From contig JBAMJV010002089.1 in NCBI GenBank assembly GCA_037951105.1, positions 1 through 64,000 on the forward strand: a stretch of DNA of 64,000 bases, read 5' to 3'. The DNA comes from Echinarachnius parma. Taxonomy: Eukaryota; Echinodermata; Echinoidea; Clypeasteroida; Echinarachniidae. The notes beneath the pieces are model-generated. The model saw only the letters and a program-made list of their open reading frames with translations. It was not told the origin of the DNA and did no database searches. Positions 2,669 to 56,043 of the stretch are shown here, piece by piece; the stretch's first letter is position 1, and each line of letters begins with the position of its first letter. A program made the translations under genes and the position numbers.

Positions 2669-3369
2669 GGGGTTTGAACCAATGACGATGCGGAGCATCG
2701 TCCACGAGCCGCGAAGCGGCGATTTTTGTTGTTGCTATTTTGACCTCCCCGTAAGTGATGTTTTCCACATCACAAATTTAACTTGGCAGCCCAAGGGGAG
2801 GGGTTTAAACCCCCTAAACCCCCCCCCCCCCCCCCTGTTGATCCGCCACTGCGAAGGAGCGAAGCGACTGAGCGGGGTGTGGGGGTGGGAGGGGGGTGTC
2901 CCCCCTCCTCTGGTAGGGAGCATTTTTGCACTTGAAACTGTGCAATCTGGTCCATACATGTACCTGGAAAAGAAATTCTGACTATACGACATTTAGTATA
3001 ATGTGCATTACCCGGGGGGTTGGGGGTACTCAGATTATAGTCGGACGGGGTTGTGCGGCTGAGACCTCCCAACCCTTACCCACATCCAAGGGTCCTTTTG
3101 CTGTAAAAAGGTACTCATGTCTATGGATTTTTTTTGAAAAAATGGACCCATGTATAAGGATTTTTTTGTGAAAAATGGACCCATGTCTGAGGATTTCGAA
3201 CTTTAAATATTACATTTTTTAGCTGTAATATAAATCAATGGCCAATCATTTTGCATTTTTTGGATACATTTTTGTATTATTAGTGAACTGTACCATACTA
3301 CAGGGGGGCGCCAGGGTATTTTCCTAGGGAGGGCGAAAGTGTATACATTGAGGGCATAGGCGTACCCAG
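2669..3369. repeat. Mixed dispersed repeats with C runs
   Basis: Contains the second copy of the ATGACGATGCGGAGCATCGT segment (2681), a run of about 17 C near 2819, and words such as CGAAGCGACTGAGCGGGG that recur around 3930. Open frames are produced by the low-complexity sequence. No gene is supported. Confidence 0.55.
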
Positions 3370-3912
3370 GGGGGGGGGTTTGGGGGTTCAAACCCCCCCC
3401 TTTGACCAAAAAATGGCTGTTTTGGGGGGTTTGAACCCCCCCCTTTTCAAATTTTAGTCGGTCTCGAGACTACTTATAAGCGGTCTCGACCGTCTAAAAC
3501 CTGGTCTCGACCGACTAAAACCCGGTCTCGACCCACTAAACCCTGGTCTTGGCCCCAAAATTTTTCGAAGATCTGTGATCTCGGGCCCCAAATTTGTTTA
3601 AGTACTTGGTCTCGGCTTCGAATATTTTCTACGGACACCCCCCCCCCCTCCCCCCCCCCCCCCCCCCCCACTGAGAGAGGTTTACAACTTTGAAGGTACT
3701 TGGTCTCGGCCTCGAAAATTTGAAAAGTACTTGGTCTCGGCTTCGAAAATTTTCTACTGACCCCCCCCCCCCCCCCCCCCCCCCCCCCCACTGAGAGAGG
3801 TTTTCAACTTTGAAGGTACTTGGTCTCGGTGTCGAAAATTTGGAAGGTACTTGGTCTCGGCTTGGATTTTTTTACAAAATAACCCCCCCCTTAAAAAAAT
3901 CCTGGGTACGCC
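3370..3912 (-). repeat. GGTCTCG / poly-C dispersed repeat with internal duplication
   Basis: Opposite-strand relative of 470-860. It holds two poly-C runs (about 3639-3669 and 3762-3789), each followed by a near-identical segment starting ACTGAGAGAGGTTT and preceded by TTGGTCTCGGCTTCGAA. The poly-C plus flank unit is therefore duplicated in tandem at about 120 bp. Confidence 0.65.
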
Positions 3913-4069: not shown

Positions 4070-4715
4070 AATAATGCGAGCGAGCGGAGCGAGCTTGAAA
4101 ATTTTAGCAATTTCACAGCGAAAAAATTGCCATTTGTTTCAATATTATTGTATGGGTATATTCGTTTTTATTACTTATGATATGGCGTTATGAAGGGTAA
4201 TATATAAACACGCGAGGTTGTGAAATATCATTTATTCGAGCGAGCGGAGCGAGCTTAAAATTTTTGGCAAATTTCACATCGGAACATTTTTTGTTCCAAT
4301 ATTATTGTATAGGTATCTTCGTTTTTACAATATGGCGTTATGAAGGGTAACATATAAACACCCGAGGTTGTGAAATATCATGTATGCGAGCGAGCGGAGC
4401 GAGCTTGAAAATTTTAGCAATTACACAGTGGAAAATTGTCATTTGTTTCAATATTGTATGAGTATATTCGTTTTATTACTTATGATATGGCGTTATATAA
4501 CACCCCAGGTTGTGAAATATCATGTATGCGAGCGAGCGGAGCGAGCTTGAAAATTTTAGCAATTTCACATCGGAAAATTGTCATTTGTTTCAATATTGTA
4601 TGGGTATATTCGTTTTATTACTTATGATATGGTGTTATATAACACCCGAGGTTTTGAAATATCATGTATGCGAGCGAGCGGAGCGAGCTTGAAAATTTTA
4701 GCAATTTCACATCGG
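4070..4715 (+). repeat. Tandem array, 142-160 bp unit, five copies
   Basis: The motif GCGAGCGAGCGGAGCGAGC (first base changed in copy 2) starts at about 4076, 4236, 4386, 4528 and 4670. Between motifs lies shared sequence with AATTTTAGCAATTTCACA, ATATTCGTTTT and GGTTGTGAAATATCA. The last two spacings are exactly 142 bp and the older ones are longer, consistent with recent addition at the right end. Confidence 0.85.
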
Positions 4716-5577
4716 CAAATCCCCAAATCCCGGAACAATGAGGGAGAAAAGAGGGGAAAGGAATAAATGAAAAAAGGGACCCATGTCTAAGGATTTTTAA
4801 AATGAAAATGGGACCCATGTCTAAGGATCTTTCTTGTAAAAGTCACCCTTCCCAGCGGCACATCCCCGTATACCCAATATACGTGAGAACCCCCCCCCCC
4901 CCGCCCCCGGGGTGCGTTAGTGCGTCATCATCGTCATGATTCTTAACCAGAAGAGGCGATTGATTCGTGAAGAAAAACAAAAATGCACCCCAAAAATAAT
5001 ATTCGCAAAGTGACATATTCAGTTCAAACAGTGCATCAAAATCATTATTTTATGACAAAACATGAACATTGTATTCCAGACGTATACAAGACCGATTCCC
5101 GAGGGAGCGAAACGATAACCGAGGGGGGAAGGGTGATGGGAGGGTGTGATGGTAGGTGGGTGCACGGTAAAGGTGCCTTTGCAATGTTTTAATTGAAATT
5201 ATGCAATCTGGTGCATACTTGGGAAGGAAATTTGACTTGACATGAAGTAAGATCCGAGTTTTCTTGTCTAAAGAAATACTCTTTTCTTTCAATCACTTTT
5301 ATCGAATTAGATAAAAGCCATGATTTGAATTTATTTGGGGGGTCAAGCGCCCCCCCATGACCCCCCACCAGTACGCCAGTGGTATCAATGTCAGTGACGC
5401 CCGTGGGTGGGAGGACTGTCCTCTTTTATTCTCCCACCATCTTTTACACTTACGGTACACGCACTCCCCTCCACTCCGCGGCCGCCCCGAAAAGGCCGGT
5501 ACCAGAGAGATTCGATACTGAAGCGTATAGCTGTACAATACGCTTATTGTACAAATACGCTTAATATATTTAAATAT
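4716..5577. other. No gene seen; low-complexity and repeat pieces
   Basis: Contains a duplicated GGGACCCATGTCTAAGGAT segment near 4776-4825 (also at 3117-3195), a C run near 4890 and a GC-rich patch around 5470-5510. Overlapping open frames on both strands have no recognisable domain. Confidence 0.5.
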
Positions 5578-6420
5578 CCTTGGCCGGTACCAACGAACGT
5601 TGAGGGCGGTAAACACGAGACCGTGCACAGAAATACAATATAAATACTAGAACCACAACTGAATAAGCGTATAGCGTTTTAACCACAGAAATAGGCCACA
5701 CCTTTATCAGCAAGTTTTTGAAAATACGCACCGAATGCCATGCAAATGAGGTAGTACGTCAGATTTTTTTCATTTGAATAAATTATCAGACGTGGATTCA
5801 TTGGATAAATTAACACATTACGCAAAAAGCTAAAGTAATTACGCATTGCGCACTTGCAGTTGCCATGGCATTTAAACACGCACTTCTCAGCAAAATTGCG
5901 CTTCATAATACCAAAGACGCTTAAGTATTCTAATTCATCTCTATTATTTTAATTACGCGCAGTACTAACAGTTACGCGATGTCATGTATTTAATTGCGCA
6001 CAGTCAAGAAACAGGGGATTTCCCTACTAGGATCAAAATATTGTTTTTCATTGTGACGTCATAACAGAGGCATACCATAAATTCGTGCGTGATAATTGTG
6101 AAGTTCGCGCCCGCGCATTATTATGAATGAATTTACGCTAATATTACCATGGCAGCCAGTCGAATTAACATAACAATCGGTGGTTCTCTTCATTACAAAT
6201 TTGGCCAACTTCCATTTTGAGTTGGGGGGGCCTGAGACCGTGTTGCCTTCAGGAAGGTCAACTCGTATATTGTTATTCACGCAGTCTATGAGAAATCGCG
6301 AATTATTTTTTGTGACCATTTCGAAGGGCGCCCCAGTTGACAGTAACGTTTTTCGGTAGATTGTAGATTTGATAAATAGACCAGAAGTCCGATTTGGTAC
6401 AGATTGACACTAAATATATA
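5578..6420 (-). repeat. Inverted duplication arm 1 (partner at 12080-12275)
   Basis: The ends match the reverse complement of 12080-12275: GGCCGGTACC / AACGAACGTTGAGGGCG at the left and GGGCGCCCCAGTTGACAGTA with TTCGGTAGATTGTAGATTTG at the right. This arm carries about 600 bp (5615-6225) absent from the other and a further insert of about 33 bp near 6268-6300. It is probably two copies of one mobile element. Confidence 0.65.
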
Positions 6421-12275: not shown

Positions 12276-12558
12276 TCCTATACCTCAAAGCAAGTCACTT
12301 GGCGACGTATAAACAAATTACGGGTAGCTGCATCGGATACGCTACGGTACCGTATCGGTCGCTCACCCCGCACGCAGCGGGCTGGCCGAACGTCACACAC
12401 GGCCTTTAGATGTGCAAATTCTCCGGCCCCATATTTACAACACTCCTTTGATCTATTCTTTTTGTGGCTTAATTGAAAAGCTCCAACTTGGAACAACATC
12501 GTCTCAGCATGCACATCAAAATGATTGCCACATTACCTGGTAATGGACCATCATCATA
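12276..12558 (+). promoter_or_regulatory. Vasohibin 5' flank and 5' UTR
   Basis: A GC-rich patch at about 12320-12440 precedes the gene. TAA at 12541-12543 is in frame with the ATG at 12559 and closes the reading frame upstream, supporting that start. The transcription start is not determinable from sequence alone. Confidence 0.4.
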
Positions 12559-12786
12559 ATGGCATCACCAGCTAAAAAGACACTGGGGTCCGGTGACAAG
12601 AGCGATGATGAAATGGTCGAGAATGAAGGCGGAAGTGGTTCTGGTGGTGTGTTGTTTTATGTCAATAAGGATGGCTTTCCCATGACGAGTCAAACTACAG
12701 AGAAGATGTGGAACCATTGTGCAAGAATTCATCCAGATGGAGAAGCCATGACAGACAAAATTCGTGGGAACAAACATTTGCCAAAG
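12559..12786 (+). CDS. VASH: Vasohibin exon 1
   Basis: Residues 1-76. The ATG has A at -3 and G at +4, and an in-frame TAA lies 18 nt upstream. An acidic Gly/Ser-rich leader is followed by the conserved start of the core. It ends LPK then GTACGT, phase 0. Confidence 0.93.
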
Positions 12787-15700
12787 GTACGTATTTCAAG
12801 GTGTTGTAGAACGTGTCGTATTACCGGACATGCAAATTCACATAGGAAAAATGTCCTTATTTTAAAGTTGAATTTGAAAGTCGGTATTAACGGAGGATGA
12901 TAAATGGACGTTCAGCAACATTTTCCCGTCATTTCCCGAAGAAAATGAGCGTCCTGAGGCGTTTTACGCGCACCTGTGGCAGCGCGCATATCTATGACAT
13001 TCCCATGCAAAACGGGAATAATCGATCACATTCGGCACTACAACACAAAATTTTGCGTCGGGAAGAGGCTTCTTTTTTGGAAGGGTTTACAAGAAAGTCG
13101 ATTTGGAGAATAATGTGCAAATTCTTTAAGACATTTTACAACAGATGTATTCTTTATGAGTTTATGCAGCTGCTGGTATAATTTCCACTTTTATTTGATG
13201 CATCTAATGTTTGTTTTGTGAGGTGAAACTAGTTGGTATCCGGTAATATCCGGTAAAATCATATATGAAATTATGCACCATCTCACAATCTGTGCTCCCG
13301 AGAAATTGTGTGTATGGTTTGTAAATGTTCATACCCTAGAAGTAGAATGATCATTTAGTAATAATTGTAGATGTGCTTTTGCTAGGGATGACCTAACTAT
13401 GATCAGCTCTGTGCGTAGCACAGAGCTGTGAATTACTGACGATCGAAATGGTGTAGCGTTTTTGCGATGAGGTGTTTTTATCACCTTTAATTATAATTTT
13501 TTTGTATTTGGTTAACCTTTTCTAGAGAACAAAAGTGCGTTTTATCTGCGCGCTACATAGAAATTATATGAAAAGAATAATAACTTACCTCAAATTGATG
13601 ATTAATCCCAAACGGCTTCGCACAAATATTCGAAATTGTCCTGTCGCCTCCAAAGTCATCGGCAATGCATGCTGGGATATATAGGCGAGGTTTTATTCCG
13701 GTTCCGCGCGTAAGTGGCGATCGGTTGACTAATACATATAAGCCAGGCCACTGTACTCAATGTTAACCTAACCGCCTGGCATATACATCGCTCGAAATCT
13801 TGCAGGAACATGTTTGTAGATGGGCGATGAGGTGTTTTATCCTCTTTAAGCAGATTTTTTAAAAATTTTGTTTACTTGTACTGCACCCTAAAATACCTAT
13901 GTACGACGGCGCTACACAAAATTGCTATAAAAAGAATGATAACTTACCTCAAATTGATTATTTATGTCGATCGTCCTTATTAGAATCCGGCTTTTTTTTC
14001 TCGATCCGTCGGCATCGCACAGCGGGATTCTAACAAGGACAATCGACATAAATAATCAATTTGAGGTAGGTTATCATTGTTTTTATAGCAATTTTGTGTA
14101 GCGCCGTCGTACATAGGTATTTTAGGGTGCAGTACAAGTAAACAAAATTTAAAAAAAATCTGCTTAAAGAGGATAAAACACCTCATCGCCCATCTACAAA
14201 CATGTTCCTGCAAGATTTCGAGCGATGTATATGCCAGGCGGTTAGGTTAACATTGAGTACATCTTGGCTCGTACACCAAAGTTTGACCTGCGACCTCACG
14301 CATGCGCACTGTGGACACAAATTCGGATACCATTTTGGAATTTTTGCTTCTTACCACAATCTGGACGATAAAAACCTAATTTTGTGAATTAATACACCGA
14401 ATGGAGCCTCATGTATCAAGACAGTGGACCATTGATGTCCATGGATAACATCCGTCGTAAGTATAAAACCAGATATAAATTGTATAGTACCTTATATACT
14501 ATTTTTACCAATAATTGTTACGACCAATACACCTAACACACACTTCAATATGCCAGACTCTGTGCTACGCACAGAGCCTGGTTAGGTTAGGGATGACCCT
14601 GAGATAGTATTACAAAATTTCCTTTTTTTCTTTTCTCAACAAGGTCTCGATACCTACAGCTCCTTCCGTTCACCTCTATCAGACCGTGTCATCAAGAATT
14701 GAAGCCGTACAAGACTACATGAATGATCTCCAGTATCCTTGCATTCATTTTATTCTATTATAGGGTAATGTAATTGAAAACAGAATGTGTGATTTTTTTA
14801 ACTCTGTATGTTTATATATTTATACCATCATTTTAATAGGACCCCGTGGAAGAACAGAACCATCGTGTTGATGGTTCTGAAATGGGCTATCCTCCCGATA
14901 TAATTTTCTTATAATATGCAACATACTATTTATATTTTTATGACTCTGTAATTTGAATATTGTTAACATCTTTGTATATTGTTTTATGATGAATGTTATG
15001 ACTTTTGTTGTATTTTTAATTCGGAAATAAAAACAAACAAACAAAAATTTTGTATATACCGTCTTACAAAATATTTATGATAAAGATTTACTGTATTTAC
15101 TTTGTTGTAATATGAGATACAATATAAGATGTTTTGCTTTAATTGAGGAAGCCACCTTTACTAAAACTACCAACCCAGATACAATCACACAGGAATGCAG
15201 TTTTACGAAGTCAAGAAAAATCGACCAATATCAGGGTAAGTCTCACTTCTATGAATTAAACGAGGTGCATACATGTAGAAGGTGTGCCCCAGCAATGTGT
15301 TCTGATGATATTAATGTCTACTGAATTTTATTTTCTTGTTCAAATTGTATTTTTTCTTGTTCACCCCTACCTGCTTTCTTTCTCTATGATTGAATTTAGT
15401 TATCCTATAGTATAAAGGTTACCTACATTAAATTATAGAGAAAGAAAGTATGTATTGTTTTTCCTCCTAGACTTTCAAAATGCATCAATTAACTAGTCTT
15501 CCTTTGTGATAATTATTATTTTAGATGTGGGTGAATATTGAACAGTGAAGAAAAAGGGTCAAAAAGCCAATTCTAGCCATAATCTGTGACCATTATAACC
15601 AAGAAACTTTTACTTACATGAGATCATTGATTATACAAACCTGCAATATCAATGACAAACTTGTACAGTACCACTGGATCCTTTGCCATGTGACCTTTCA

Positions 15701-18700
15701 CATTTGTGCCTGTTAATAAATACAACCAATGTCAATGAGATGGATCAGATGGCATTCTCTTCGAAGACATGCCCACGACTTGGCATGCATAACTAAAAGA
15801 ACCGATGCGCTATACAAATTGCTTTGAACATGGGTTCTCTTAGTCATGCATACCAAGTCGTGGGCACGCGTCTTCGAAGAGAATGCCGATCAGATAGTCG
15901 TGCACTTCCAAATTGTTGTAACTTACCAACAAATTAAATGTTGACTTCTTTAGATGATTAATTTGAAGAAACCTTGCAGTATCATCAATGAGAATCATTT
16001 AGAACACAATTGATTTACCTTTCCTTTTTTACCGTGACCTTTGACATCTGTGCAGGTTGATGAATACAGATGGATCAGATAGTCACTTCCAAATTATTGT
16101 AACTTCTTGCGATGATTCATGAACAAAATCCTGCAGTTTCAATGCATGAGGACCATTTATAAAAACAAACCGTATCTAACTTTTTGTTGTGACCTAATTG
16201 TTTCCGTATGACCTTTGACATTTGTGCAGGTTGATGGATACAGCCAAGGAGATGATCAGAGAGTCTCTTCCAATCAAGTGCCTGGAATCTGTCATTCTCG
16301 GAATGTATCCTTGCTAAATATGATATATTCATACATTAGTTATTCAGTATTTTATCTAAATACCACCTTTGCTCATAGCGCCATGGTCGCATTTTCTTGT
16401 TTTGCTTTCTATTTTTATAAAGGGGGGGGGGGGGGGGGGATGTCTGTGTTTTTTTTTAATAAAGAAAACATAATTTATAATATATTCCTAGTATTTCTAT
16501 GTCCATGGAAAGTTAAAAGTAAATGTCTCGCCACATAAAATAAGGTGTATGTATCTTACCAATCACTACCATCACTGTGATTCACCAGTAGAATTTGATT
16601 ATTTTTTAGGTTTTATAGCTTTAGAATTTGACATTTTTTAGGTTTTATAGCTTTAGAATTTGACATTTTTTTAAACAAAAAAGTGATTGATTTATGTATT
16701 ATACTATATATAGATTAGTAGTGGCAGTAATGAATTCACATAACATTGCTTGACAAACAATGATATTTAGTGACTTAATTGAGGTAATATTTTTGTTTAA
16801 ATGTACAATTACGGCGCCTTAATTACCAACAAATGGAACCTCAGCTACCTGACCAATGGTACCCCTGGCCTGGAGCGGTTCCCCATTGGCTTCAAGACAC
16901 AGTTTCATGGTAACATCCACCGCCACGTGGTGCTAGGGCTGGTGCACAACTCTCGGTACGGCGCCATGGGCCTGAGCAGGAGGCAGGATCTGATGGACAA
17001 GCCACTGGAATTTAAGGTTCAACCCTTATTCATTTTCATTTAATTTTTGTGTGTTAATTTTGAGAAGTGAATAAACAAGGCTCTGCAACACATTTCTGAA
17101 TTATAACCAGTTACTCATAATAATTTGGTTCTAGATAACTTGACCTGGCTGGGCAAGTGACTCCAAACTCACTATATTATTTATTTGATATTATGCCGGT
17201 TATTAGGATATGTCATTGGGCAATACAATTAGGTAGGATTTCACAATATTTTTCAAATTTGTGGATATATATTATAATTAGCCTATAATTATAACTCAAA
17301 GAGCTATTATCTGAATGATCAAATCTTTATGTCGTTGCTGAGTTTAGAAAGTGTAACCTTCTTATTACCTGCCTTTTCCATTAATTCCATTTCCAGACAC
17401 TGTCAGAACTCATATTCAGCTATCAAGATGCCTACAAGAAATGTGAGTACCGGTTCCATTTTGTCTTGCTTCTAATTGGTTTGTAGTTATTTTTCGCCTC
17501 CAAAATATTCTGTGTGGAATTTAAACTGTAGGAGCCTGAGGGTCGACCAACACACTAGATTGCTTTAGAGTGGGGGGATGCTTTAAATGTGTCAGAAAAT
17601 AAAGAATTTTTAATTATATAACCATAATTGAAACCTGCTTTCACAAATTGTTTTCTAAAAATGTAAAGCTCAGTGGAATCAGAGTCAGATTGTCAAAAAT
17701 TTGTTGGAACATGATATTTGACCCTGTTAAACTACAGTCTCTGTCCTTAAAGGGTACCACCACCCGAAAATAATATTCTTATTAAAGAAAGGTAACATCT
17801 TTAGTATTCCATTCCATGAACAAGTTCACAAAAATATGTTTCCAGAAAGAAAAAAAAATTGGAAACGCATCACCATTCTAAAGCATGCGTTCATGCGGTC
17901 TGAATTACGCAGACTGCTATGTGTGCGGTGAATTGCAATGCATGCAGAGCGAACGAATCGCCCGGGAATCTATTGTTTACAAACGTGCGCGTGAATAGCA
18001 TCGGCGCACTCGCAAATGGTTGGCCCGTATGGAACCAGGAAATAGCAGTGGTTCTGTAAGTGGTGGAAATTAATTGCTTTGTTTATGAATTACACAACCC
18101 TTTGCAAAATGTTGGGTATCTATTTGATATCACAAAACGGTACCAAAACATATAATAATGTGTTGTTCTTTGCCTGGTGGTCCCCTTTAAATTGCAACAG
18201 TTTTAGTTCTTGGGATAGAGACCTCTCACACGATGCATCTTTTTTCGTTGCTGCAATGCTGGAGATTGTAAATTGCGTCATGTTTTATAACTTGAAACAG
18301 CAAAGTCTCCTCGTAGGAATTATTAAGACCCGCTTTAAACAGTTTTAATTGTCTCTTTTTTTTCTTCTCTGGACTACAGATTGGCATACAGTAAAGAAAG
18401 TGAAAGTTGGATTGCCAGTGGCACATGATCCTCACAGCTTTGAGCAGATCCAGTGGAGGGTGAGATTATTTATTATTATTATTATTATTTATTTTGTGTA
18501 TTTTTGTTGTTGGAAACTTACTTTCTTCTGTCAGGTTTTGAGGGTTCCTTTTCTGTGTGTGCATTTAAATGTTTTTTTCTTGTATGTGTGTGTAGATTCA
18601 AATCAGAATGAAAATTACAGGGGCTCTTTTATGATTTTGGAGGGCTCTTGTGGCATTTCGGGTTCTACATTGCCCTGAGGCCACCCCCCCCCCCCCCCCC

Positions 18701-21581
18701 TCCTGTATTTTGTAAATGGTGGCGATAAGTGTCGCTGTGTAATCATTAAAGTAACAATCATTTTCTCTTTAATTTCCCCCAATGCATGCAGCATCTTTCC
18801 GTGAACATGTGGAAGATGAGCAGAACTGAAGCAACCAGAGAGATTGACAAGTATGCCAAAGACATGAAAGCATGTGTGAGTATTAGTACAGGCAAACCTG
18901 TCTATAAAGACCGCTTGAGGGAGACAGGACATGTGGTCTTTATAAGCAGGTGGTCTTTATAGATGAGGTCATACAGTCAAACCTGTCTATAAAGACCGCT
19001 TGAGGGAGACAGGACATGTGGTCTTTATAGATGGGTTCATGATTACAGTCAAACCTCTCTATAAAGACCACTCATGAAGAGATGGAACATGTGGTCTTTA
19101 TAAGCAGGTGGTCTTTATAGATGGGTTCATGAGTACAGTCAAACCTCTCTATAAAGATCACTCAAGGGAGACAGAACATGTGGTCTTTATAAGCAGGTGT
19201 TCTTTATAGTTTGGTTCATACATACAGTCAAACCTGTCTATAAAGACCGCTTGAGGGAGACAGAACATGTGGTCTCTATAAGCAGGTGTTCTTTATAGAT
19301 GGGTTCATATATACAGTCAAACCTGTCTATAAAGACCACTCATGAAGAGATGGAACATGTGGTCTTTATAAGCAGGTGATCTTGATAGATGAGTTCATAC
19401 AGTCAAGCCTGTCGACCACTCGAGGGAGACAGAACATGTGGTCTTTATAAGCAGAGTCTTTATAGATGGGTTCATATATAGTCAAACCTGTCTCAGTATA
19501 AAGACTACTTGAGGGAGACAGGACATGTGGTCTTTATAAGCATGTGGTCTTTATAGATGGGTTCATGATTACAGTCAAACCTCTCTATAAAGACCACTCA
19601 AGGGAGACAGAACATGTGGTCTTTATAAGCAGGTGTTCTTTATAAATGGGTTCATACAGTCAAACCTGTCTATAAAGACTGCTCAAGGGAGACAGAACAT
19701 GTGGTCTTTATAAGCATGTGGTCTTTATAGATGGGTTCATATATACAGTCAAACCTGTCTATAAAGACCACTTGAGAGAGACAGGACATGTGGTCTTTAT
19801 AAGCAGGTGGTCTTTATAGATGGGTTCATATATACAGTCAAACCTGTCTATAAAGACCACTCAAGGGAGACAGGACATGTGGTCTTTATAAGCAGGTGGT
19901 CTTTATAGATGGGTTCATATATACAGTCAAACCTGTCTATAAAGACCACTCAAGGGAGACAGGACATGTGGTCTTTATAAGTAGGTGATCTTGATAGATG
20001 AGTTCATACAGTCAAGCCTGTCTGACCACTCGAGGGAGACAGAACATGTCTTTATAAGCAGAGTCTTTATAGATGGGTTCATATATAGTCAAACTTGTCT
20101 CAGTATAAAGACTACTTGAGGGAGACAGGACATGTGCAGGTGGTCTTTATAGATGGGTTCATGAGTACAGTCATACCTGTCTATAAAGACCGCTCAAGGG
20201 AGACAGGACATGTGTGTGGTCTTTATAGATGGGTTCATATAAAGTCAAACCTGTCTATAAAGACCACTTGAGGGAGACAGAACGTGTGGTCTTTATAAGC
20301 AGGTGGTCTTTATAGATGGGTTCATACAGTCAAACCTCTCTATAAAGACCACTCAAGGGAGACAGAACATGTGGTCTTTATAAGCAGGTGTTCTTTATAA
20401 ATGGGTTCATACAGTCAATCCTGTCTATAAAGACTGCTCAAGGGAGACAGAACATGTGGTCTTTATAAGCATGTGGTCTTTATAGATGGGTTCATATATA
20501 CAGTCAAACCTCTCTATAAAGACCACTCATGAAGAGATGGAACATGTGGTCTTTATAAGCAGGTGGTCTTTATAGATGGGTTCATGAGTACAGTCAAACC
20601 TCTCTATAAAGACCACTCATGAAGAGATGGAACATGTGGTCTTTATAAGCAGGTGGTCTTTATAAGCAGATGGTCTTTATAAATGTATTAATATATAAAG
20701 TCAAACCTCTCTATAAAGACCACTCGAGGGAGACAGAACTTGTGGTCTTTATAAGCAGGTGATCTTGATAGATGAGTTCATACAGTCAAGCCTGTCTGAC
20801 CACTCGAGGGAGGCAGGACATGTGGTCTTTATAAGCAGGTGGTCTTTATAGATGGGTTCATGATTACAGTCAAACCTGTCTATAAAGACCATTCAAGGGA
20901 GACAGAACATGTGGTCTTTATAAGCAGTCTTTATAGATGGGTTCATATATACAGTCAAACCTGTCTATAAAGACCACTCAAGGGAGACAGAACATGTGGT
21001 CTTTATAGATGGGTTCATGATTACAGTCAAATCTGTCTATAAAGACCACTTGAGGAAGAGTAAGAAAATGGATGTAAACAGCCTCCCAAGTATGGTCATA
21101 GTTACCTAAATGTTCCAGACATTTTGATTTGTGATAAAGAAAAGAATTCATGAAAATTCAAGACTCATTTTAGTGTATTTCTTCAAAAATATAAGTTATA
21201 TGTGACATTAATCAATCAATTGTCTTCTTCAAAAAAGTGGAAGGGGGGCCAACAAATTTAGTTAAAATTCTTATGAAACATAATACAGTAGTATATTGTT
21301 TATAATGAAATTGTGTCCTTTTCATTTTGTGTGTTTGTATGCGTGCATGGCAGTACAAGTCAAGTCGATCTGGCAATACGAGCTATCAGTTTGTGCAAGA
21401 GACAAACCCCTACAACTCACCACGCAGAAACCCCGGTCAGGGGGCAACACCCCGCATCGGTCAGTCCAAATCGTTGTCGCCCGTAGCCATCAAGATGACG
21501 TCGACGGCAGACGATAGCGACGATGATGGCCCCTTGGTAGAAAAGAAACTTGGGGGAGGAGGATATGAAATAAGAATATGA
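12559..21581 (+). CDS. VASH: Vasohibin, tubulin tyrosine carboxypeptidase (complete, 9 coding exons)
   Basis: Vasohibins remove the C-terminal tyrosine of alpha-tubulin, usually in complex with the small protein SVBP. Joining nine exons gives 1059 nt, or 352 residues, close to vertebrate VASH1 and VASH2. Every junction is in phase with GT donors and AG acceptors. The core begins near residue 30 (VLFYVNKDGFP, then a WNHCARIHPDGE segment). The non-canonical catalytic residues are Cys142 (LPIKC), His177 (IHRHVVLG) and Ser194 (GAMGLSRR); spacings of 35 and 17 match human Cys169, His204 and Ser221. Tyr107, Lys141, Lys167 and Arg195 also sit at the positions of the conserved human pocket residues (offset 27). 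The C-terminal tail is Ser- and Arg-rich and ends GGYEIRI, like vertebrate family members. The sequence does not decide between VASH1 and VASH2; a single pre-duplication ortholog is likely. No frameshift or lost key residue was seen. Confidence 0.95.
13383..14598. mobile_element. Foldback element in vasohibin intron 1, with flanking 11-bp direct repeats
   Basis: TAGGGATGACC occurs at 13383-13393 and 14588-14598. Just inside are small hairpins with the stem CTCTGTGC / GCACAGAG (13406-13426 and 14558-14576). Within lies a long palindrome: left arm 13752-13987, loop 13988-14032, right arm 14033-14261. A third, more diverged copy of the arm sequence lies at 13430-13650. No transposase is visible. 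The direct repeats look like a target duplication, though they sit a little outside the hairpins. Confidence 0.75.
14644..14732 (+). CDS. VASH: Vasohibin exon 2
   Basis: 89 nt after TTCTCAACAAG. It encodes VSIPTAPSVHLYQ and the conserved RIEAVQDYMNDLQ helix. It ends within a Gln codon (CA) before GTATCC; the codon is completed by exon 3. Confidence 0.92.
14830..15047 (+). mobile_element. LINE 3' tail in intron 2
   Basis: Starts near GGACCCCGTGGAAGAACAG, continues with AAATGGGCTATCCTCC, and ends in GAAATAAAAACAAACAAACA. This is the usual layout of a 5'-truncated CR1/RTE-type LINE 3' end in invertebrates. No reverse-transcriptase codons remain. Confidence 0.55.
15179..15235 (+). CDS. VASH: Vasohibin exon 3
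   Basis: A 57-nt exon after CCAACCCAG. It completes Gln106 and encodes YNHTGMQFYEVKKNRPIS plus two bases of Gly125, followed by GTAAG. Tyr107 matches the conserved human Tyr134. A longer open frame runs through the exon in another frame and is not the gene product. Confidence 0.93.
15640..16260 (+). repeat. Tandem triplication reaching into exon 4
   Basis: Three diverged units, each starting near CCTGCAGT..TCAATG, lie at about 15640-15940, 15970-16115 and 16130-16260. Each contains a version of GTGACCTTTGACATTTGTGC followed by exon-4-like sequence (TTGATGGATACAG). The third unit carries the true exon-4 acceptor. The second keeps an AG acceptor (decoy exon start 16056), while the first has lost it (GCCT in place of GCAG). 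Confidence 0.8.
15751..15887. mobile_element. 137-bp MITE with 8-bp target duplication
   Basis: Perfect terminal inverted repeats begin GGCATTCTCTTCGAAGAC, and the arms extend to about 60 bp. GATCAGAT flanks it at 15743-15750 and 15888-15895. The paralogous unit at 16071-16100 carries the same flanks without the insert, which proves the insertion and its borders. An 8-bp duplication is typical of hAT-type transposition; the transposase source is not visible. Confidence 0.9.
16230..16304 (+). CDS. VASH: Vasohibin exon 4 (catalytic Cys)
   Basis: 75 nt after CATTTGTGCAG. It completes Gly125 and encodes LMDTAKEMIRESLPIKC and LESVILG, with catalytic Cys142. It ends with two bases of Ile150 before GTATCC. 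Its acceptor and first third are the template of the upstream decoy copies. Confidence 0.95.
16845..17016 (+). CDS. VASH: Vasohibin exon 5 (catalytic His and Ser)
   Basis: 172 nt. It completes Ile150 and encodes YLTNGTPGLERFPIGFKT, the HRHVVLG segment with His177 and the RYGAMGLSRRQDLM segment with Ser194. The acceptor (AAATGGAACCTCAG) lacks a good pyrimidine tract, but protein continuity fixes it. The exon is clearly more GC-rich than its surroundings. Confidence 0.95.
17397..17442 (+). CDS. VASH: Vasohibin exon 6
   Basis: A 46-nt exon between CCATTTCCAG and GTGAGTA. It encodes TLSELIFSYQDAYKK and the first base of Tyr223. It is too short for an open-frame search and was found by continuity with the family. 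Confidence 0.9.
17751..18186 (+). mobile_element. TTAA MITE family 1, copy a (intron 6)
   Basis: Bounded by TTAA at 17747-17750 and 18187-18190. The ends are AGGGTACCACCACCC and GCCTGGTGGTCCCCT, which are imperfect inverted repeats. Very similar copies lie at 26871-27291 and 49175-49591. It is noncoding. Confidence 0.88.
18380..18459 (+). CDS. VASH: Vasohibin exon 7
   Basis: 80 nt after TCTCTGGACTACAG. It completes Tyr223 and encodes WHTVKKVKVGLPVAHDPHSF and EQIQWR, the well-conserved HDPHS segment of vasohibins. It ends phase 0 at AGG before GTGAG. Confidence 0.95.
18792..18875 (+). CDS. VASH: Vasohibin exon 8
   Basis: 84 nt after CCCCAATGCATGCAG, 28 codons. It encodes HLSVNMWKMSRTEATREIDK and YAKDMKAC, matching the C-terminal helix of the catalytic domain. 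The GTGAGT donor follows TGT. Confidence 0.9.
18890..21060 (+). repeat. Self-complementary minisatellite filling intron 8 (unit about 95 bp)
   Basis: More than twenty units of the form CAGTCAAACCTGTCTATAAA, GACCACTCAAGGGAGACAG, ACATGTGGTCTTTATAAGCA, GGTGGTCTTTATAGATGGGT, TCATATATA. Units differ by point changes, by loss of one of the two GGTCTTTATA halves, and by higher-order blocks: the degenerate AGCCTGTCTGACCACTCGAG type recurs at about 19404, 20014 and 20787. Each unit can pair internally (CTATAAAGACCAC with GTGGTCTTTATAG). Confidence 0.92.
21354..21581 (+). CDS. VASH: Vasohibin exon 9 (C-terminal tail and stop)
   Basis: Starts at TACAAG after TGCATGGCAG. It encodes a Ser/Asn/Pro-rich tail, an acidic patch (ADDSDDDG) and the end GGGGYEIRI, with TGA at 21579-21581. 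This tail is the least conserved part of the family apart from its last residues. Confidence 0.93.
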   Translation, partial: YKSSRSGNTSYQFVQETNPYNSPRRNPGQGATPRIGQSKSLSPVAIKMTSTADDSDDDGPLVEKKLGGGGYEIRI

Positions 21582-22219: not shown

Positions 22220-22222
22220 TTA

Positions 22223-23241
22223 TGCCTCGGTCAAACCTTTGCGTATGTTGCTGCGTATTGCTGCGCTAGGCGGGGTATATCAATACGCAGCCTTACCCAG
22301 CAATACGCAGCGATTTTTAAGTTAGCAGTCACACTATTGCGTATTGTAGCTCGTATGCCGCTCGTATAGAGACTGCGTACGGTTGCCTATGGTCCCGCTT
22401 TAGCTCGCTGTTGCTCGAAGCAGTACGATTCAATACGCAGTGTGCTCGCCACATTGCGTATGGAACTCGTTCTTTGCTCGCTTGCCGCTCGCTAGCCGCT
22501 CGCACGAGTTGGTATCGTTGCGTCTCACTGCGTATTCGCTCGCTTTAGCTCGACTGCCGTTCGTACTGTTGCGTGCCAACTCGCTCTGAAGCGTACCAGC
22601 TCGCTCGGGCTGCGGCGGTAGATAAAAACTGGTCATTTTGCGGCCCGTCTTTTTTTGCAAATCGTCCTGCTAGGCAGCCAATCGTAGTGCTAGCGAGCTA
22701 AAGCGAGCGGGAACCAGCGAGAGCGAGCTAAATCGAATGGCACACGAGCTAGACTCGCAGCATAGCGAGTGGCACACGAGCGAGACTCGCAGCAAAGCGA
22801 GTGGCCATCGCAGTGATTCGTGTTGCTAGGAGCGGTGTGCGAGCAACAGCGCAGCAATACGCGCAATCATGCGAACGACAACGAGCTACAGCGAGGTAAA
22901 TCGTATGGGAAACGCAGCTATACGCAGTGACACGCGCTCTAAAAAAATGAGGTGCGAATGATTGCGTATACCTGCGCTAGGTCACTCGCTGTCGCTCGCT
23001 GTTGCTCGCATTCACTGGTTGTCACTCGCTCCCGCTCGTATGCAATTTGACCTTGCGTTTGCTTGCGAGAGTTAACATTTTAAAACTAGTGAGCGACATA
23101 CGCAGGCCCCTGCGCTAGTCTGCGTATTGAGTACGTAGTGAGCTCGCATCATTGCGCTTTATTGGGTGTGTCTGCGTATGTCTGCGTTCGAGCAATACGC
23201 AGCAATACGCAAGCCCAATACGCAAAGGTGTGACCGAGGCA
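22223..23241. mobile_element. 1,019-bp TIR element built of CTCGC and TACGCAG words, TTA target duplication
   Basis: Ends are TGCCTCGGTCAAACCTTTGC at the left and the reverse complement of TGCCTCGGTCACACCTTTGC at the right: one mismatch in 20, and the match continues a few bases further. TTA flanks both sides (22220-22222, 23242-23244). The interior is almost wholly permutations of CTCGCT/AGCGAG and CTGCGTA/TACGCAG, in blocks of alternating orientation (CTCGC-rich at 22440-22600, GCGAG-rich at 22680-22910, CTCGC-rich again at 22970-23060). The TTA duplication fits PIF/Harbinger-type target choice, but no transposase is present. Confidence 0.8.
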
Positions 23242-23259
23242 TTACATCAACTTTTTCCA

Positions 23260-25268: not shown

Positions 25269-25521
25269 AGGCATTGGCTCACATCTGCCCAGCGGGCTTG
25301 GCCGCCACTTATTTGCAGTAAGATCTTCCCAAGTCAATACATGTATTTTAGAATACCACTGTTTGCCCTTATGCACTTCCTAACTTCCTGACCTCGGACA
25401 CAAATTAAGAAGAAAATTAAGAACGATATTTGAAATAAATTTGGGCTGACACAGTGCTGCTTGATGCCCACCATAAATACTCATTATTCAGAGCAATTAT
25501 ATTACATTTGTGTTCAGTTAA

Positions 25522-25904
25522 AGGGATCTAGTAACTTTGTTAACATGTGCAAAAAGAGATTTAATGGTTGATATGATATATATTGTTGTCATCTATTCAT
25601 ATGTCCTGGGTATTGTGTGAAAATTTCAAGATAAATGAACGTTATATGGCTGAGTAATGAGCTAAAATGCAAAGTGATATTCACTAACTCATATTGCACC
25701 TACTTTGTGCATGGTTACGACTATCCAGTGGATAGTTTTACATCTGAACACTTCAATTGTAAATATCCTTTTAACGAAAGGGAAATTCGAAAAAACCGAA
25801 ACCTGTCCCATGCTTCTATTGTTAATATGAATACAACAAGGTATGAGGGAACCGCTAGAATTCCAATTGGATTTTGAGGACTTGGACAATGTTACTAGAT
25901 CCCT
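25522..25904 (+). mobile_element. TTAA MITE family 3, copy a
   Basis: Bounded by TTAA at 25518-25521 and 25905-25908. The ends AGGGATCTAGTAACTTTGTT and ACAATGTTACTAGATCCCT are inverted repeats. Other copies lie at 45363, 52507, 57697 and 62706. It is noncoding. Confidence 0.88.
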
Positions 25905-25908
25905 TTAA

Positions 25909-29877: not shown

Positions 29878-30925
29878 GGTAACGAAAGTGGTGACAAAAA
29901 TGAACAGAACGAAAGTGGTGACGAAAGTTGTGACGAAAGTGGTGACAAGGTGGCGCCAAAATGGTGGCAAAATTGATGACGAAAGTGGTAACGAAGGTGG
30001 GGACGAAGGGTGTGACAAAATATGGGATGTATTGGTGACGAAAATCGACAAAAGGAGTGACGAAAATTGGGACGAACGTGTGAATTAAAGTGATGACGAA
30101 TGGGGGAACGAACGAGCTTTTGTATATAAGTGGTGACGAAATTGGGGACGAAAGTAGCGGAGAAAGTGGCAACGAATGTGGGGACAAAATGGGGACGAAA
30201 GTGGTGATGATAGTGGTGATGATAGTGGTGACGAAAGTGGTGACAAAAGAGGTGATGATAGTGGTGACGATAGTGGTGACAAAAGTGGTGACGATAGTGG
30301 TGACAAAAGTGGTGACGAAAGTGTGGACGAAAGTGGTGACGATAGTGGTGATGATAGTGGTGACGATAGTGGTGATGATAGTGGTGACGATAGTGGTGAT
30401 GATAGTGGTGACGATATTGGTGACGATAGTGGTGACGATAGTGGTGATGATAGTGGTGACGATAGTGGTGACAAAAGTGGTGATGATAGTGGTGACGATA
30501 GTGGTGACGAAAGTGGGGACGAAAGTGGTGATGACTAGTGGGGACGATAGTGGTGACAAAAGTGGTGATGATAGTGGTAACGAAAGTGGTGACAAAAGTG
30601 GGGACGAAAGTGGTGATGATAGTGGTGACGAAAGTGGGGACGATAGTGGTGACGAAAGTAGGGACGATAGTGGTGTCGAAGGAGGGAACAAGGGTGTGAC
30701 GAAATATGGGACGAAAGTGGCGACGAAAGTGGAAATGAGAGTGTCGACGATATAGTGGGGACAACAAAATGGGAAGAAAGTGGGGACGAAAATGATGCCA
30801 AAAGTGGGGACGGAAGTGGTGACGAAGATGGGGACGGAAGTGGTGACGAAGATGGGGACGGAAGGTATTAAGACGGGACGAAAGTGGTGACAAAAGTGAC
30901 AACGAAAGTGGTAAAGAGACTGGTG
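29878..30925 (+). repeat. 12-bp minisatellite GACGAAAGTGGT / GATAGTGGTGAC
   Basis: About 1 kb of tandem 12-bp units with variants (GATGATAGTGGT, GACAAAAGTGGG). The core at about 30200-30540 is the most regular and the edges are degenerate. Because the unit is four codons long and stop-free, long open frames appear on both strands, including 516 codons on -. They are by-products of the repeat. The array lies beyond the 3' end of the zinc-finger gene. Confidence 0.93.
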
Positions 30926-31104
30926 ACCAAATGATCTTGTGGAAAAAGTAAAATATCCCGAGTGTGCCCTTCAAAACATGGGCGTAGGAGCAAAAAAAAA
31001 ATTTCTTCAGGGGCTGAGATCTTTTGCCCGAATAATTATAATCCCGTCTTTTCACACGGAAATGGTATGTTGTTGATGGTTTAGTTCGTAAATAACATGA
31101 TTCT

Positions 31105-31531: not shown

Positions 31532-33631
31532 TCAACTTTCAGAAGATGGTCTGACAGGCTCTTTCTTGAATACATCATCCTTGGATTTAACTGTCTTCGT
31601 TTGTCTACCCGCGCCCTTTGTCTTTGGATCCTCTCGTCGGTGCTTCCGTTCATGCTGTACGAGGTCATAGTCAGACCCTTGGGTCTCGCCGCAGTAGCGG
31701 CACATGTGCAGCGCCCTCGCGTGGATCCGTTCATGACGCTTGAGGTGCGTCTTATAGTGGAAGACCTCCTTGCAGTAGCGGCAAGCGTGGTTCCTGTCCT
31801 GCCGGTGACTCCTCTCGTGGTTCTTTAGCCCGATGCTATGCTCGAATTCGCGCACGCAAAGCTCGCAGCGAAACATCTGCTTTGTATGGTTTCGTTGCTG
31901 GTTACTCTCCTTCTTGACTTTCTGATGGGAGTCACTCGTCGTCCTCTGTGCCGGTGTAGCTTGTGGATTTGATGGGTTAGCTGAAAGGTGTGAAAACTGT
32001 GTTTGCATCTGATTAAAGCCATACCCAGGACTCGGTACTTTGTTGCCATTTATTTCCCACGACGGTGAATTAGGACTCTGTAACGGTGACGGCTGACCGA
32101 CGAAGCCGTTGAAAGATGCGTGTGTTTGATCGCTTGGCGAAAACTGGCCATGGGGCAACTGCTGGTCATTCAACAAGGCTACAAAGGAAAAGTTGTTTGT
32201 CATCGGTTCGTTTAGAGAAGTTGAATTGATAGAATGATCAGTTCTCTTTTCTGCCATTTGCATTGAGATTTCGGACGCAGTTCCCGGCCCGTGTGGAACG
32301 GCGTTCTGTTTTGACATCTGCGATGTATTGTATGCATGATCTTGAGATCCCGTGCCTAGGTAATTTGTCTGTGAAGATAGGGGTGATATTCGTCCAGCCA
32401 AGTTATTCAGATTATGGAAGTTGTTTGATGTTGGGCTTAAGGGGGAGTGCGGTGAAGAGTTGGGTGATGACGAAACGGGAGAACCTAAAGGATGTAATCC
32501 ACAGGGTGACGAGGGTTGCGAGGGGCCGAGAAGTGGGGAAAGTTGACCACTCTGGTTTGGCGAAGGCGCGGTAGGTGATAGAAATGATGGTAGAGTTGTG
32601 TTTTGAGCGATTGGATTCTCCAGACGGTGCAGCTGGTGTGACGACGTTGGACCGATAAGGGAAGGTGAAGACACGGGACTGACTAACGGTGATGCACCGA
32701 GAGAGGACGGTGTGGTACAAAGAGGTGAATCGGGTTCTGACCCAATGCTATGGGTGCGATAGCAGTCCTTGCTACCACCCTGGTGCATGATTCGCGGAGG
32801 CTGAATGTTATTCCCGAGGGATGTCAAGGTTTCAGGTTGGTGGATCTGTCCCGTCAGGGAATTCCGCTGAGCCGAGTCAAGATTTCCTTGTGATGACTGT
32901 TTTGCCGCCGAGACACAAGTTGTTTGACTGTCCGAAACGAATGTTCTAAGATCACTCCAGATTTGTATTGTTGGCATATTGTTTCCAACAGCCAGTGAGT
33001 TTGGTCTGGTAAATGACAAGCTCTGGCATGATCCTGGTTCCGTTTTTGCCGGCCACATAGGTATTTCTCCATTCTGGTCATACCCGTTCTGTTCACCCTG
33101 TGTCTGATTTACAGAAATCTGAGGCATGGTCGCGTTGAATTCCATGTCACTGCAAACGTTATCAAATGTTAGGGACTCGTCCGTCTGCGTACGTGATGAA
33201 ATGTAAGTATTCCCATCTTCTCTCGAGTTATTTCTGCTAAATGTTTGTGAAAAGCTAGGCAGTGTCTGTGTATTTTGGCAATTTCTCTCGACCGATTCTT
33301 CGTTCAAGTCAGCATAAACCTTGCAGAGCACGTCACCAATGTCAAATACGGATGACTTTTCTGCGCCATCTTTCAAGATACCGTCGTCGGGGAAGAATTC
33401 ATATGGGCTTTCCGAAAATATGTCACAGATGTCATCGACCTCGGATAGGGTGATCTCGGGTAGATTTTCCATGCTCGTATGATTCACACCGTTATGTTGG
33501 ATATTGGTTGTCAGAGTCTGCTTCATATCGTGGGTGTCTGTCGAGGCCATGCTGTCAAACTTCACTCGTCCGTTGGCACCAATGGTTGGGGAGTTGAGAA
33601 GGAGAGGGCAAATAGATATCGACTCTGCCAT
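31532..33631 (-). CDS. C2H2 zinc-finger protein, 699 residues, ortholog not recognised
   Basis: Likely a nuclear DNA-binding regulator. Three canonical C-X2-C-X12-H-X3-H fingers lie at the C-terminus: 589-609 (CELC...HERSH), 617-637 (CRYC...HERIH) and 644-664 (CRYC...HERKH). Finger 3 lacks the usual aromatic residue after its second Cys. A basic tail follows (TKTVKSKDD, then PSSES). About 580 residues before the fingers are low-complexity and rich in Ser, Pro, Asn and Gln, with Pro-Ser repeats in the middle. An acidic hydrophobic segment near residues 60-85 (EVDDICDIFSESPYEFF) could be an activation domain. The start is supported by an in-frame TAG four codons upstream. The whole coding region is one exon. 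The fingers do not let me name a family such as KLF, EGR or SNAI. Confidence 0.9.
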   Translation of the reverse strand: MAESISICPLLLNSPTIGANGRVKFDSMASTDTHDMKQTLTTNIQHNGVNHTSMENLPEITLSEVDDICDIFSESPYEFFPDDGILKDGAEKSSVFDIGDVLCKVYADLNEESVERNCQNTQTLPSFSQTFSRNNSREDGNTYISSRTQTDESLTFDNVCSDMEFNATMPQISVNQTQGEQNGYDQNGEIPMWPAKTEPGSCQSLSFTRPNSLAVGNNMPTIQIWSDLRTFVSDSQTTCVSAAKQSSQGNLDSAQRNSLTGQIHQPETLTSLGNNIQPPRIMHQGGSKDCYRTHSIGSEPDSPLCTTPSSLGASPLVSPVSSPSLIGPTSSHQLHRLENPIAQNTTLPSFLSPTAPSPNQSGQLSPLLGPSQPSSPCGLHPLGSPVSSSPNSSPHSPLSPTSNNFHNLNNLAGRISPLSSQTNYLGTGSQDHAYNTSQMSKQNAVPHGPGTASEISMQMAEKRTDHSINSTSLNEPMTNNFSFVALLNDQQLPHGQFSPSDQTHASFNGFVGQPSPLQSPNSPSWEINGNKVPSPGYGFNQMQTQFSHLSANPSNPQATPAQRTTSDSHQKVKKESNQQRNHTKQMFRCELCVREFEHSIGLKNHERSHRQDRNHACRYCKEVFHYKTHLKRHERIHARALHMCRYCGETQGSDYDLVQHERKHRREDPKTKGAGRQTKTVKSKDDVFKKEPVRPSSES

Positions 33632-33705
33632 CTTTGCAATCTACTTGAGACGTTGTCGGTTTATCGGCCATGCAATATTCTTCAAGTTGCCATCAAGAGT
33701 TGGAT
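33632..33705 (-). other. 5' UTR part of zinc-finger coding exon, splice acceptor at its edge
   Basis: On - ATATTTCCACAG ends at 33706 and is followed by 74 nt leading to the ATG, with an in-frame TAG 12 nt before the start. At least one noncoding exon should lie upstream. A donor-like AGCAG|GTACAT on - near 34066 is one possibility. Confidence 0.6.
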
Positions 33706-34880: not shown

Positions 34881-35115
34881 AAAGGACACTCTTTCTGTTG
34901 GATCCGAGAGCCTCTGCTGAGATTCGTGCATGAGCGCCATCTACGACTTGATGGTATCCAACTTCGGCGCGGCATTGTACTTTTTGTACACGAATTTGGA
35001 TTCATGTTTGTAAACATCATCATCAAGGTGGTGAGTGTGTCGCCGTATTCGTCTCTGACGTTGAAATATACCTAATGCGACTGAGAATTAGAACTTTTCG
35101 AATGATAGAAAGAAC
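34881..35115. promoter_or_regulatory. Likely shared promoter region of divergent genes
   Basis: A moderately GC-rich stretch with CpGs lies just before the ACSS1-like ATG, and the zinc-finger gene reads away on the other strand. The head-to-head arrangement suggests a shared regulatory region. No TATA box is evident. Confidence 0.4.
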
Positions 35116-35548
35116 ATGGCGCTTCTGTATCGACCACATTTATCGTCTATCGCTTGGTTCAAGAGCGCGTTGCCTACTTTCGCGGGCATCTGCCAGCGAT
35201 CCACGGCCAGCGTTGGCCTTGGCCCGTGTTTTGATAGCCGTGCCCGCCGATCATCCAGCCCGCTGGTCTCGGCTAGTTTAGTGAGAGGTTTCCGGGGAAC
35301 ACCAGCGTGGCATGCGAAACAAGTCTCATCGACATACATTCCCGAGCTTGACGAGTTCGAGAGGCTAGGTTTCTCGTTTGACAGTCACCAGGAGCTGTAT
35401 GATTTCTCGCTGAGAGACCCCGAGCAATTCTGGGGAACTTTTGCTCGCTCAAGGCTTCGATGGAACAAAGATTTTGAGAAAACCATGAACTGCAATTTGT
35501 CTGAAGGCCAAATTTCCTGGTTCTTGGGCGGGCAAATAAATGCCTCAG
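35116..35548 (+). CDS. ACSS1: Acetyl-CoA synthetase, mitochondrial type, exon 1 only
   Basis: This family makes acetyl-CoA from acetate, CoA and ATP; ACSS1 acts in the mitochondrial matrix. The exon encodes 144 residues and ends phase 1 at a GTGAAT donor. Residues 1 to about 70 are rich in Arg, Ser and Ala with almost no acidic residues, as expected for a mitochondrial presequence. From about residue 85 the start of the synthetase N-terminal domain is clear: SHQELYDFSLRDPEQFWGTF, RWNKDF, and GQISWFLGGQINAS, which aligns with the GWFLGGQLNVS segment of ACSS1. ATG at 35116 has A at -3 and G at +4. The AMP-binding and catalytic motifs would be in later exons, none of which I found up to 64000. 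Confidence 0.85.
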
Positions 35549-37250
35549 GTGAATATAGAATCTATCATTGTTTTGTATGAAATTCAGAACTTCAATGCAT
35601 AAAAATATGACAAAATTAACCACCATTTAAATTCACATCAATCAGTCCATGATCATATTGGGCAATCAACAGTAAACAAACCTAACATTTTAACAAATAC
35701 ATTAATAATAATATTATATGTCATTGTCCCATTGACATTGTGCCACATGCAAAATAATATCTAACTAACCGCATTTTTCCTTTTGCTAGGGCACTTCTGT
35801 TTGGGAATAAGTTCATAACCATCATTGATGCTATGCGGCGAACAACTGCCAAAGTAGATGACTGTTCTATGAGTATGAGCTCACACCCTGGGGCACTGCA
35901 AGGGGGGGGGGGGGGGCATTGAAATTATTTTTTGACAGTGATGTGCCGCACGGAACTCTGAAATGGGGGTCTGAAGAGCTGACTAGTACAAGCACAAAAT
36001 AAAGGATCTTTGGAGCTACAAAAACCCTGAAACGGGAGTTAAGAGGTCTAAGGAGCAGACTTTAACTACAAAATACATAGACTTGGAGCTACCAAAAAAA
36101 ACCCCTCAAAAAGGCTCAAATGGTGGTCCAAGGAGCCGAACTAGAAGAATAATAATGGACTTGGCGCTACTTAAATACATTGCCAAGTCATTCCGAGGGT
36201 CTATGGAGCCGAACTAGAAGAAGAATAATGGACTTGGCGCTACTCAACTACCTAGCCAAGTCATTCCGGGGGTCTATGGAGCGGCAATTTTTGAAAATCG
36301 GGTATCTTTAAGAGCTGCGATCGGGTGTGAAAACGGGGTTCTTTTAAACAGCACATACCCGTCTTACATTATACATGAGTTGTTGATTTGTTATTCAAGC
36401 ATATTGATATCGATGAGTTAGAGCCAATGATGCTTATTAAGATGGTAAATGTCGCTGGTCCGTAATCGGGCCCCTGCCCCCAGGTCCCATGCTTTCATTG
36501 CATTTGTAAAGTTTCTTATGCAGGCCATCCTCTTCCTGTTCCTAACCATTTTTTCCAGATAGCACAGCCAGAGGTCATGCAAATGGTAATACTAGTACAT
36601 ACTGTTATGCACAATTTCCTGGTCGTACTATGTATTAAGACAATGCATGTGTTAGCATGTAAAAATTGATCCCCCAGCTATGCATTGCCTATTGATTGAC
36701 TACAACGCATGATAGAATTGTAATATATGGATGAGAGAAATATCCCTAAGTATTCAAAATGAGTCAAACATAGTGGTCCCGTGTTGTAATCAAGTGGTGG
36801 GCATGCATGTCTAAGTGTGGATGTGGTGGATGCAGTTCAAATACTACTCTTGACACGCACTGAGGTCGCCATGTAAAAAAGCGAGCTTTAGAACTAGCTC
36901 GCATTGTGCGATAACGTGCCTTTCCCCAAACTCCCCAAAGCAGAAAAGAATTCAGCAGAAAATATTCCTTCCCTTGGAATTGGATAAGATAAGATTGAGG
37001 TCCCGTTCATAGGAGAGTAACACCCTGTGCCGTTAATAGTTCACCCAATGGGTAGGGTGAAAACCTGTGTAATTACATGTAGTACAGCCGAACATCTCAG
37101 TGGTGGGCTAGGACTTCAACCCTGTGTTGTAAACAAATAATGTTTAACGTCTTGATTTATAAAATAAAACATGTATATTTTTTAGAATTGATCCCTGGCT
37201 ATCATTCATAGCATGTATTACAATGTACATGTAGGGGCCATAAACATTGA
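35549..37250. other. Presumed ACSS1-like intron 1, start; no exon seen
   Basis: Contains a G run at about 35901-35916 and a 73-bp duplicated unit with GGAGCCGAACTAGAAGAA and AATGGACTTGGCGCTACT (36132-36280). No synthetase motif was recognised in any frame. Confidence 0.5.
36132..36284 (+). repeat. 73-bp tandem duplication
   Basis: Two consecutive copies share GGAGCCGAACTAGAAGAA, AATGGACTTGGCGCTACT and CCAAGTCATTCCG. A third partial start follows at about 36278. Confidence 0.75.
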
Positions 37251-56036: not shown

Positions 56037-56043
56037 TTTTTAA

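Follow-up and report, generated by a model that had tools for sequence, protein, structure and literature searches.

Internal arrays of protein-binding sites are already known from several groups of DNA transposons, including Ac/Ds, CACTA and Galileo. As far as the accessible parts of the published descriptions go, the Ac transposase binds cooperatively to the subterminal word AAACGG, the internal repeats of Spm are bound by TNPA, and the THAP domain of Galileo binds several sites in the long repeats of that element. Those partial sources also describe the soybean CACTA element Tgmt*, in which 28 subterminal repeats occur in direct and inverted orientation and which makes a 3-bp duplication, and mPing/Harbinger, a two-protein system with a Myb-like binder. 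The mobility of mPing went with internal GC content, for which its authors propose a role of nucleosomes.

The element described here is MITE-like, about 1 kb long and lies in an animal genome; the finding rests on one copy, within a window (the whole stretch of DNA that was analysed) of 64 kb. Like Ac/Ds of the hAT group it carries short repeated words, whereas Ac/Ds, in the accessible text, has an 8-bp duplication and confines them to the 200 bp next to each end. It shares with the CACTA/EnSpm elements Spm and Tgmt* many direct and inverted internal repeats able to form stem-loops. Tgmt*, however, is a 20.5-kb coding element whose repeats, built on a 17-bp motif, lie within 159 and 732 bp of its ends in the part of the source that describes them. 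Galileo, Tetris and other foldback elements may resemble it in having inverted arms with internal tandem repeats, and some Galileo repeats hold extra binding sites; the same partial accounts give Galileo and Tetris long arms and long units (about 220 bp in Tetris), in contrast to the strongly diverged arms and the unit of about 10 bp seen here. The sea urchin TU elements have arms of short repeats with a 15-bp unit and make an 8-bp duplication. Foldback elements of sea urchin are mentioned in the accessible part of PMC4079207, and as invertebrate foldbacks they may resemble this element, a likeness set by description and not by sequence. Among the matches listed, no title or abstract start in the open-licence literature names the element.

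Ends, target-site duplication and family likeness

By sequence inspection, the element spans positions 22223 to 23241 (1019 bp) and is bracketed by TTA duplications:

22220-22222, no strand: left target-site duplication, TTA
22223-22246, plus strand: left terminal inverted repeat, TGCCTCGGTCAAACCTTTGCGTAT, matching the right end at 23 of 24 bases and containing CTCGG and TTGCGTA
23218-23241, minus strand: right terminal inverted repeat, matching the left end at 23 of 24 bases
23242-23244, no strand: right target-site duplication, TTA

When the neighbouring A/T is included, the 25-nt arms are 96% complementary, and end-to-end similarity reaches about 44 bp with one indel. The original prediction had placed a transposon-like element with clean inverted ends and a TTA duplication at these coordinates, and it was correct: TTA stands on both sides and 23 of the 24 terminal bases pair. 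Its transposon-like nature is supported by the inverted ends, by the duplication and by the lack of a Pfam match in all five listed ORFs (at least 70 aa) that overlap it. The 3-bp duplication is nonetheless counted as weak evidence for a transposon because similar inverted pairs with 3-bp flanks exist elsewhere in the window. The 64 kb hold 13 pairs in which 11-base inverted ends have matching flanks of 3 bp, as opposed to 1-3 per simulated window (n=5), and when six of the other pairs were extended (six more were left unextended) three reached 17-18 exact bases.

PIF/Harbinger elements prefer TWA targets, and a 3-bp duplication of that form, TTA on both sides, is present at this one copy. The MITEs of that superfamily (Tourist, mPing) are, like the element, short, with inverted ends and a 3-bp TTA or TAA duplication. 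Its ends, both of which begin TGCCTCGGTC, are presumably unlike those of Harbinger, and we know of no comparable word array in mPing. Since the TTA duplication is one weak feature, the element may be regarded on that ground as a Harbinger-like candidate and not as a member. CACTA/EnSpm ends begin CACT(A/G); direct and inverted subterminal repeats, a feature of that family, are present here, and membership was rejected on the first bases, TGCCTCGGTC. Tc1/mariner membership was rejected as well, as it needs TA directly at the ends and here TA precedes TGCC on the left while TT follows GGCA on the right. P-type elements duplicate 7-8 bp, and neither hAT nor P/Galileo membership was accepted because no 7-8-bp duplication is found in the flanks, CCCCATTA and TTACATCA. 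As to the long tandem-repeat inverted arms of foldback elements, the strand from 22233 to 23231, as DNA, folds better than all 20 of 20 shuffles (z -6.8), and two internal blocks can be aligned as arms, though diverged.

Setting of the element in the window

The element is known from one copy in the 64 kb, as judged from the 60 best matches of its sequence to the window, among which those outside it had E values of 2.3 or worse. Neither its ends nor its tandem word gave a match in a viral contig collection. Four bacterial contig matches to the ends were rejected as further copies: none of the four had a second end, and about two would be expected (an estimate for 19 fixed bases), so they are attributed to chance. 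No transposase was found among the 27 of 141 ORFs of the window scanned with Pfam; the other 114 fell outside the scan.

The window is animal DNA, as its Vasohibin, acetyl-CoA synthetase and C2H2 ORF matches show, perhaps that of an echinoderm-like marine invertebrate. Two plus-strand ORFs match vasohibin, 12544-12897 (Pfam Vasohibin, E 3.7e-14) and 18349-18675 (E 3.3e-07), the latter also matching tubulinyl-Tyr carboxypeptidase 1 in PDB; the ORF at 35092-35577 shows a match to the N-terminus of acetyl-CoA synthetase, and that at 31532-33640 (minus strand) has C2H2 fingers below the Pfam cut-offs and many zinc-finger structure matches. From the last vasohibin match (about 18462) it is some 3.8 kb downstream to the element, which would thus be either in an intron or beyond the gene. 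Shortly downstream of that match, at 18890-21060, is an array of about 2 kb with a unit of about 85 bp (GTGGTCTTTATAGATGGGTTCAT...CAGTCAAACCTGTCTATAAAGACCAC) that is apparently part-palindromic.

Several other repeats are visible. A 137-bp MITE-like element at 15751-15887 has perfect inverted ends of 18 bp (GGCATTCTCTTCGAAGAC) and is flanked by an 8-bp duplication, GATCAGAT. Inverted ends also enclose 25519-25907 and 56043-57100, with 17 and 14 exact bases and flanks of AGT and TTA; both are possible small transposons, and a 273-bp stretch at 42175-42447 has 18 exact inverted bases whose flanks partly extend the palindrome (AAATATAA / TAATATTT). At 4201-4720, a 142-bp tandem unit with GCGAGCGAGCGGAGCGAGC has GCGAG in common with the element and ranks below the top 25 phased windows. 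At 29909-30931, about 1 kb is taken up by a degenerate 12-bp repeat (ACGAAAGTGGTG), which has strong GC skew and several open frames. Positions 5700-6150 are CpG-dense (o/e up to 1.6) and by eye could be a promoter island; the phased CpG cluster near there was rejected as a second element of this kind, having no visible word array and no comparable ends. No RNA gene was found at Rfam gathering scores, and a tRNA-Leu (caa) called by ARAGORN at 3354-3449, in a repeat rich in G/C runs, had no Rfam tRNA at gathering score and is probably spurious.

Words, orientation blocks and helical spacing

GC content is 0.53 in the element and 0.37 in the rest of the window, and CpG o/e is 1.40 as opposed to 0.70, figures that, like the 24% coverage below, were computed on a span one base beyond the element end. 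The words CTCGC, CTGCGTA and TTGCGTA cover 24% of the element exactly, compared with a mean of 3.1% and a maximum of 7.0% in first-order Markov simulations (n=500). CTCGC and CTGCGTA alone cover 20% (2.8% simulated, n=60), 47% with one mismatch (28% simulated, maximum 35%, n=60) and 57% with two mismatches in the longer word (46% simulated, maximum 54%, n=60). The forms CTCG[CTA] and [CT]TGCG[TC] account for 64 of the 102 CpGs in the element. All nine occurrences of TGCGTATTG in the window lie within it, as do 11 of 13 of TACGCAG and 25 of 70 of CTCGC. The original prediction of a CpG-dense island in AT-rich DNA, with words like those of its own ends, is thus borne out, CTCGG and TTGCGTA being found within the terminal 24 bases. 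It had also called the interior made almost only of these words; the enrichment is indeed far above chance, but exact words cover just 20-24% (about 3% simulated), and the interior is word-rich with other sequence also present.

Between the terminal repeats, the following features can be distinguished:

22250-22311, no strand: end-proximal palindrome of TGCGTA words, arms 22250-22278 and 22283-22311, 83% complementary
22313-22320, no strand: AT-rich spacer at a block boundary, ATTTTTAA
22331-22615, plus strand: core plus array of CTCGC- and TGCG-type words, with two isolated minus words
22616-22664, no strand: word-free centre containing A and T runs at 22624 and 22650
22665-22940, minus strand: core minus array, with two isolated plus words, forming a diverged inverted repeat colinear with the core plus array
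22941-22947, no strand: A7 run at a block boundary
22958-23062, plus strand: second plus array, with CTCG words at 22987, 22997, 23007, 23027 and 23037
23063-23104, minus strand: short two-word block, with an AT-rich run at 23077 between both words
23105-23192, plus strand: third plus block, five of its six plus words of TGCG type
23193-23217, minus strand: pair of TGCGTA words adjoining the right end

The alternating orientation blocks that had been predicted are real: the 61 words fall into 16 runs of orientation, against a mean of 30.5 and a minimum of 18 in 20000 shuffles, and form eight alternating blocks once four isolated words are set aside. Word types are clustered as well (21 runs vs 31.3, p 0.005). 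TGCG-type words, which are also found in the core, make up all of the first six and the last six words, and it is therefore consistent with the sequence that the words were amplified from the element ends. Runs of A or T of at least five bases number four and are sited at three of the seven block boundaries; the AT-rich run at 23077 is an extra one inside a block.

Eight of the 28 block pairs align above z 2.5 over unit-shuffled pairs. The top-scoring pair is the core plus array against the reverse complement of the core minus array, whose score of 107 was reached by none of 100 and by one of 200 unit-shuffled pairs; this points to the two core blocks as arms of an old inverted duplication. 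From the mutation pattern it follows neither that the words are under constraint nor that the copy is young, because two sets of counts disagree. Among one-base variants of CTCGC and CTGCGTA, CG is retained in 38 of 60 (29 of 49 and 9 of 11, respectively), and 24 of the 36 possible variants retain it, so that selective retention of CG was rejected; the commonest variant, CTAGC (10), has no CG. No excess of deamination products was found among these variants within the element, with CTTGC seen 4 times (4.2 simulated), CTCAC 3 times (2.0), and CTGCATA and CTGTGTA not at all. Between the core arms, by contrast, changed CpGs are TG/CA in 7 of 11; unit-shuffled pairs gave about 4.3 of 11.4. At 19 of 30, the share of CpGs conserved from one arm to the other is near the 57% of shuffled pairs and is little informative.

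That CpG words stand about one helical turn apart is a new observation, absent from the earlier account. CpG pairs separated by 10 or 11 bp occur 57 times, compared with 20.1 +/- 5.1 and a maximum of 40 in simulations (n=1000). Distances between CpGs peak at 10-11, 20-22, 30-32, 40-42 and 51-53 bp and continue to do so up to 94-95 bp, while distances of 7, 8 and 13-15 bp are depleted (31 vs 50 simulated). The best single period is 10.38 bp, with a power of 11.9 where the highest of 1000 simulations gave 8.1. Across the 64 kb, 415 overlapping windows of 400 bp have 12 CpGs or more, and the 14 best-phased of these all overlap the element. In the core plus array the words are mostly 10-13 bp, or about twice that, apart. 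Gap permutation of the words gave no excess of long-range phase over neighbour spacing (p 0.58; plus 0.69, minus 0.10), and spacing between neighbours of about one turn is therefore claimed here, not phase kept along the whole kilobase. The same permutation for all CpGs gave some extra coherence (p 0.008), which by segment was p 0.07, 0.002 and 0.20, the middle segment being 22640-22945.

Origin and possible role of the word array

The reading that we favour, at a probability of roughly 0.45, is that the element is a cut-and-paste DNA transposon of the non-autonomous kind, its interior consisting of an array of putative sites for the transposase or for some protein that partners it. Comparison with Ac/Ds, CACTA and Galileo makes it plausible that the words are transposase-binding sites; they would be recognised either by the DNA-binding part of the transposase or by a separate binding protein encoded by the element. 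The words may have arisen in the ends and then spread inward as slippage and inverted duplications multiplied them. With the sites on one face of the helix, many monomers could bind side by side, an arrangement that the one-turn spacing fits; once bound, they could label the copy and bring its two ends together so that it can be excised. This reading draws on the TTA duplication and the 23/24 ends, on CTCGG and TTGCGTA within those ends, on the CpG spacing, the orientation blocks and the clustered word types, and on the precedents of Ac, Tgmt* and Galileo. Counted against it are the single copy, the failure to find a partner element or binding protein, the word gaps without long-range phase, the word variants without CG preference, and the fact that a functionless degenerate 10-bp array would yield much of the pattern. 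In a bolder version, which we consider unlikely, the entire body would be a helically phased site array for a DNA-binding protein encoded by the element, the copy acting as a protein-coated filament or as a decoy, winning transposase in competition with its autonomous parent. A whole body filled with sites at helical spacing would be unusual.

Such a functionless array is a serious, if still doubtful, possibility: the element would be of foldback or MITE type, its interior just a degenerate 10-bp minisatellite that replication slippage and inverted duplication expanded from an end word and that has no binding role. Local tandem stretches in the element (a 10-bp unit at 22981-23030 and a 32-bp unit at 22700-22805) agree with it, as do the alignment of the core blocks as a diverged inverted repeat, the strong folding of the strand and the lack of additional long-range phase in the word gaps. 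CG is not favoured among word variants, which lowered our confidence in a binding array and in its bolder version and raised that in slippage. Two clustered word types, one of them at both ends, are more order than plain slippage needs, although compatible with it, and our preference for a binding array over functionless slippage is slight. That the interior organises nucleosomes, with GC steps at intervals of 10.4 bp, AT steps out of phase with them and positioned nucleosomes bringing the ends together, is improbable. At the 10.38-bp period, WW and SS steps are indeed offset in phase by about 4.3 bp, and the authors of the mPing work, in the part of it that is accessible, raise such a role. 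However, this anti-phase is expected from any 10-bp unit containing CG, AA/TT alone is weakly periodic (power 1.8), and nucleosomes need neither fixed words nor orientation blocks. Least probable is that no transposon is involved and a local CpG-rich satellite or regulatory island ends by chance in an inverted repeat. No second copy was seen among the 60 best matches in the 64-kb window or in the viral and genome contig collections, and the window holds further inverted pairs with 3-bp matches, but ends of 24 bases with one mismatch, sited at the borders of the composition shift and joined by TTA, speak against chance.

Should the words be binding sites, this copy would show how far such sites can multiply and how their spacing is set, and it would be a ready substrate for testing the number of sites and the face of the helix used by a transposase system. 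If they are products of slippage only, it would illustrate neatly how the end of a transposon can seed a minisatellite.
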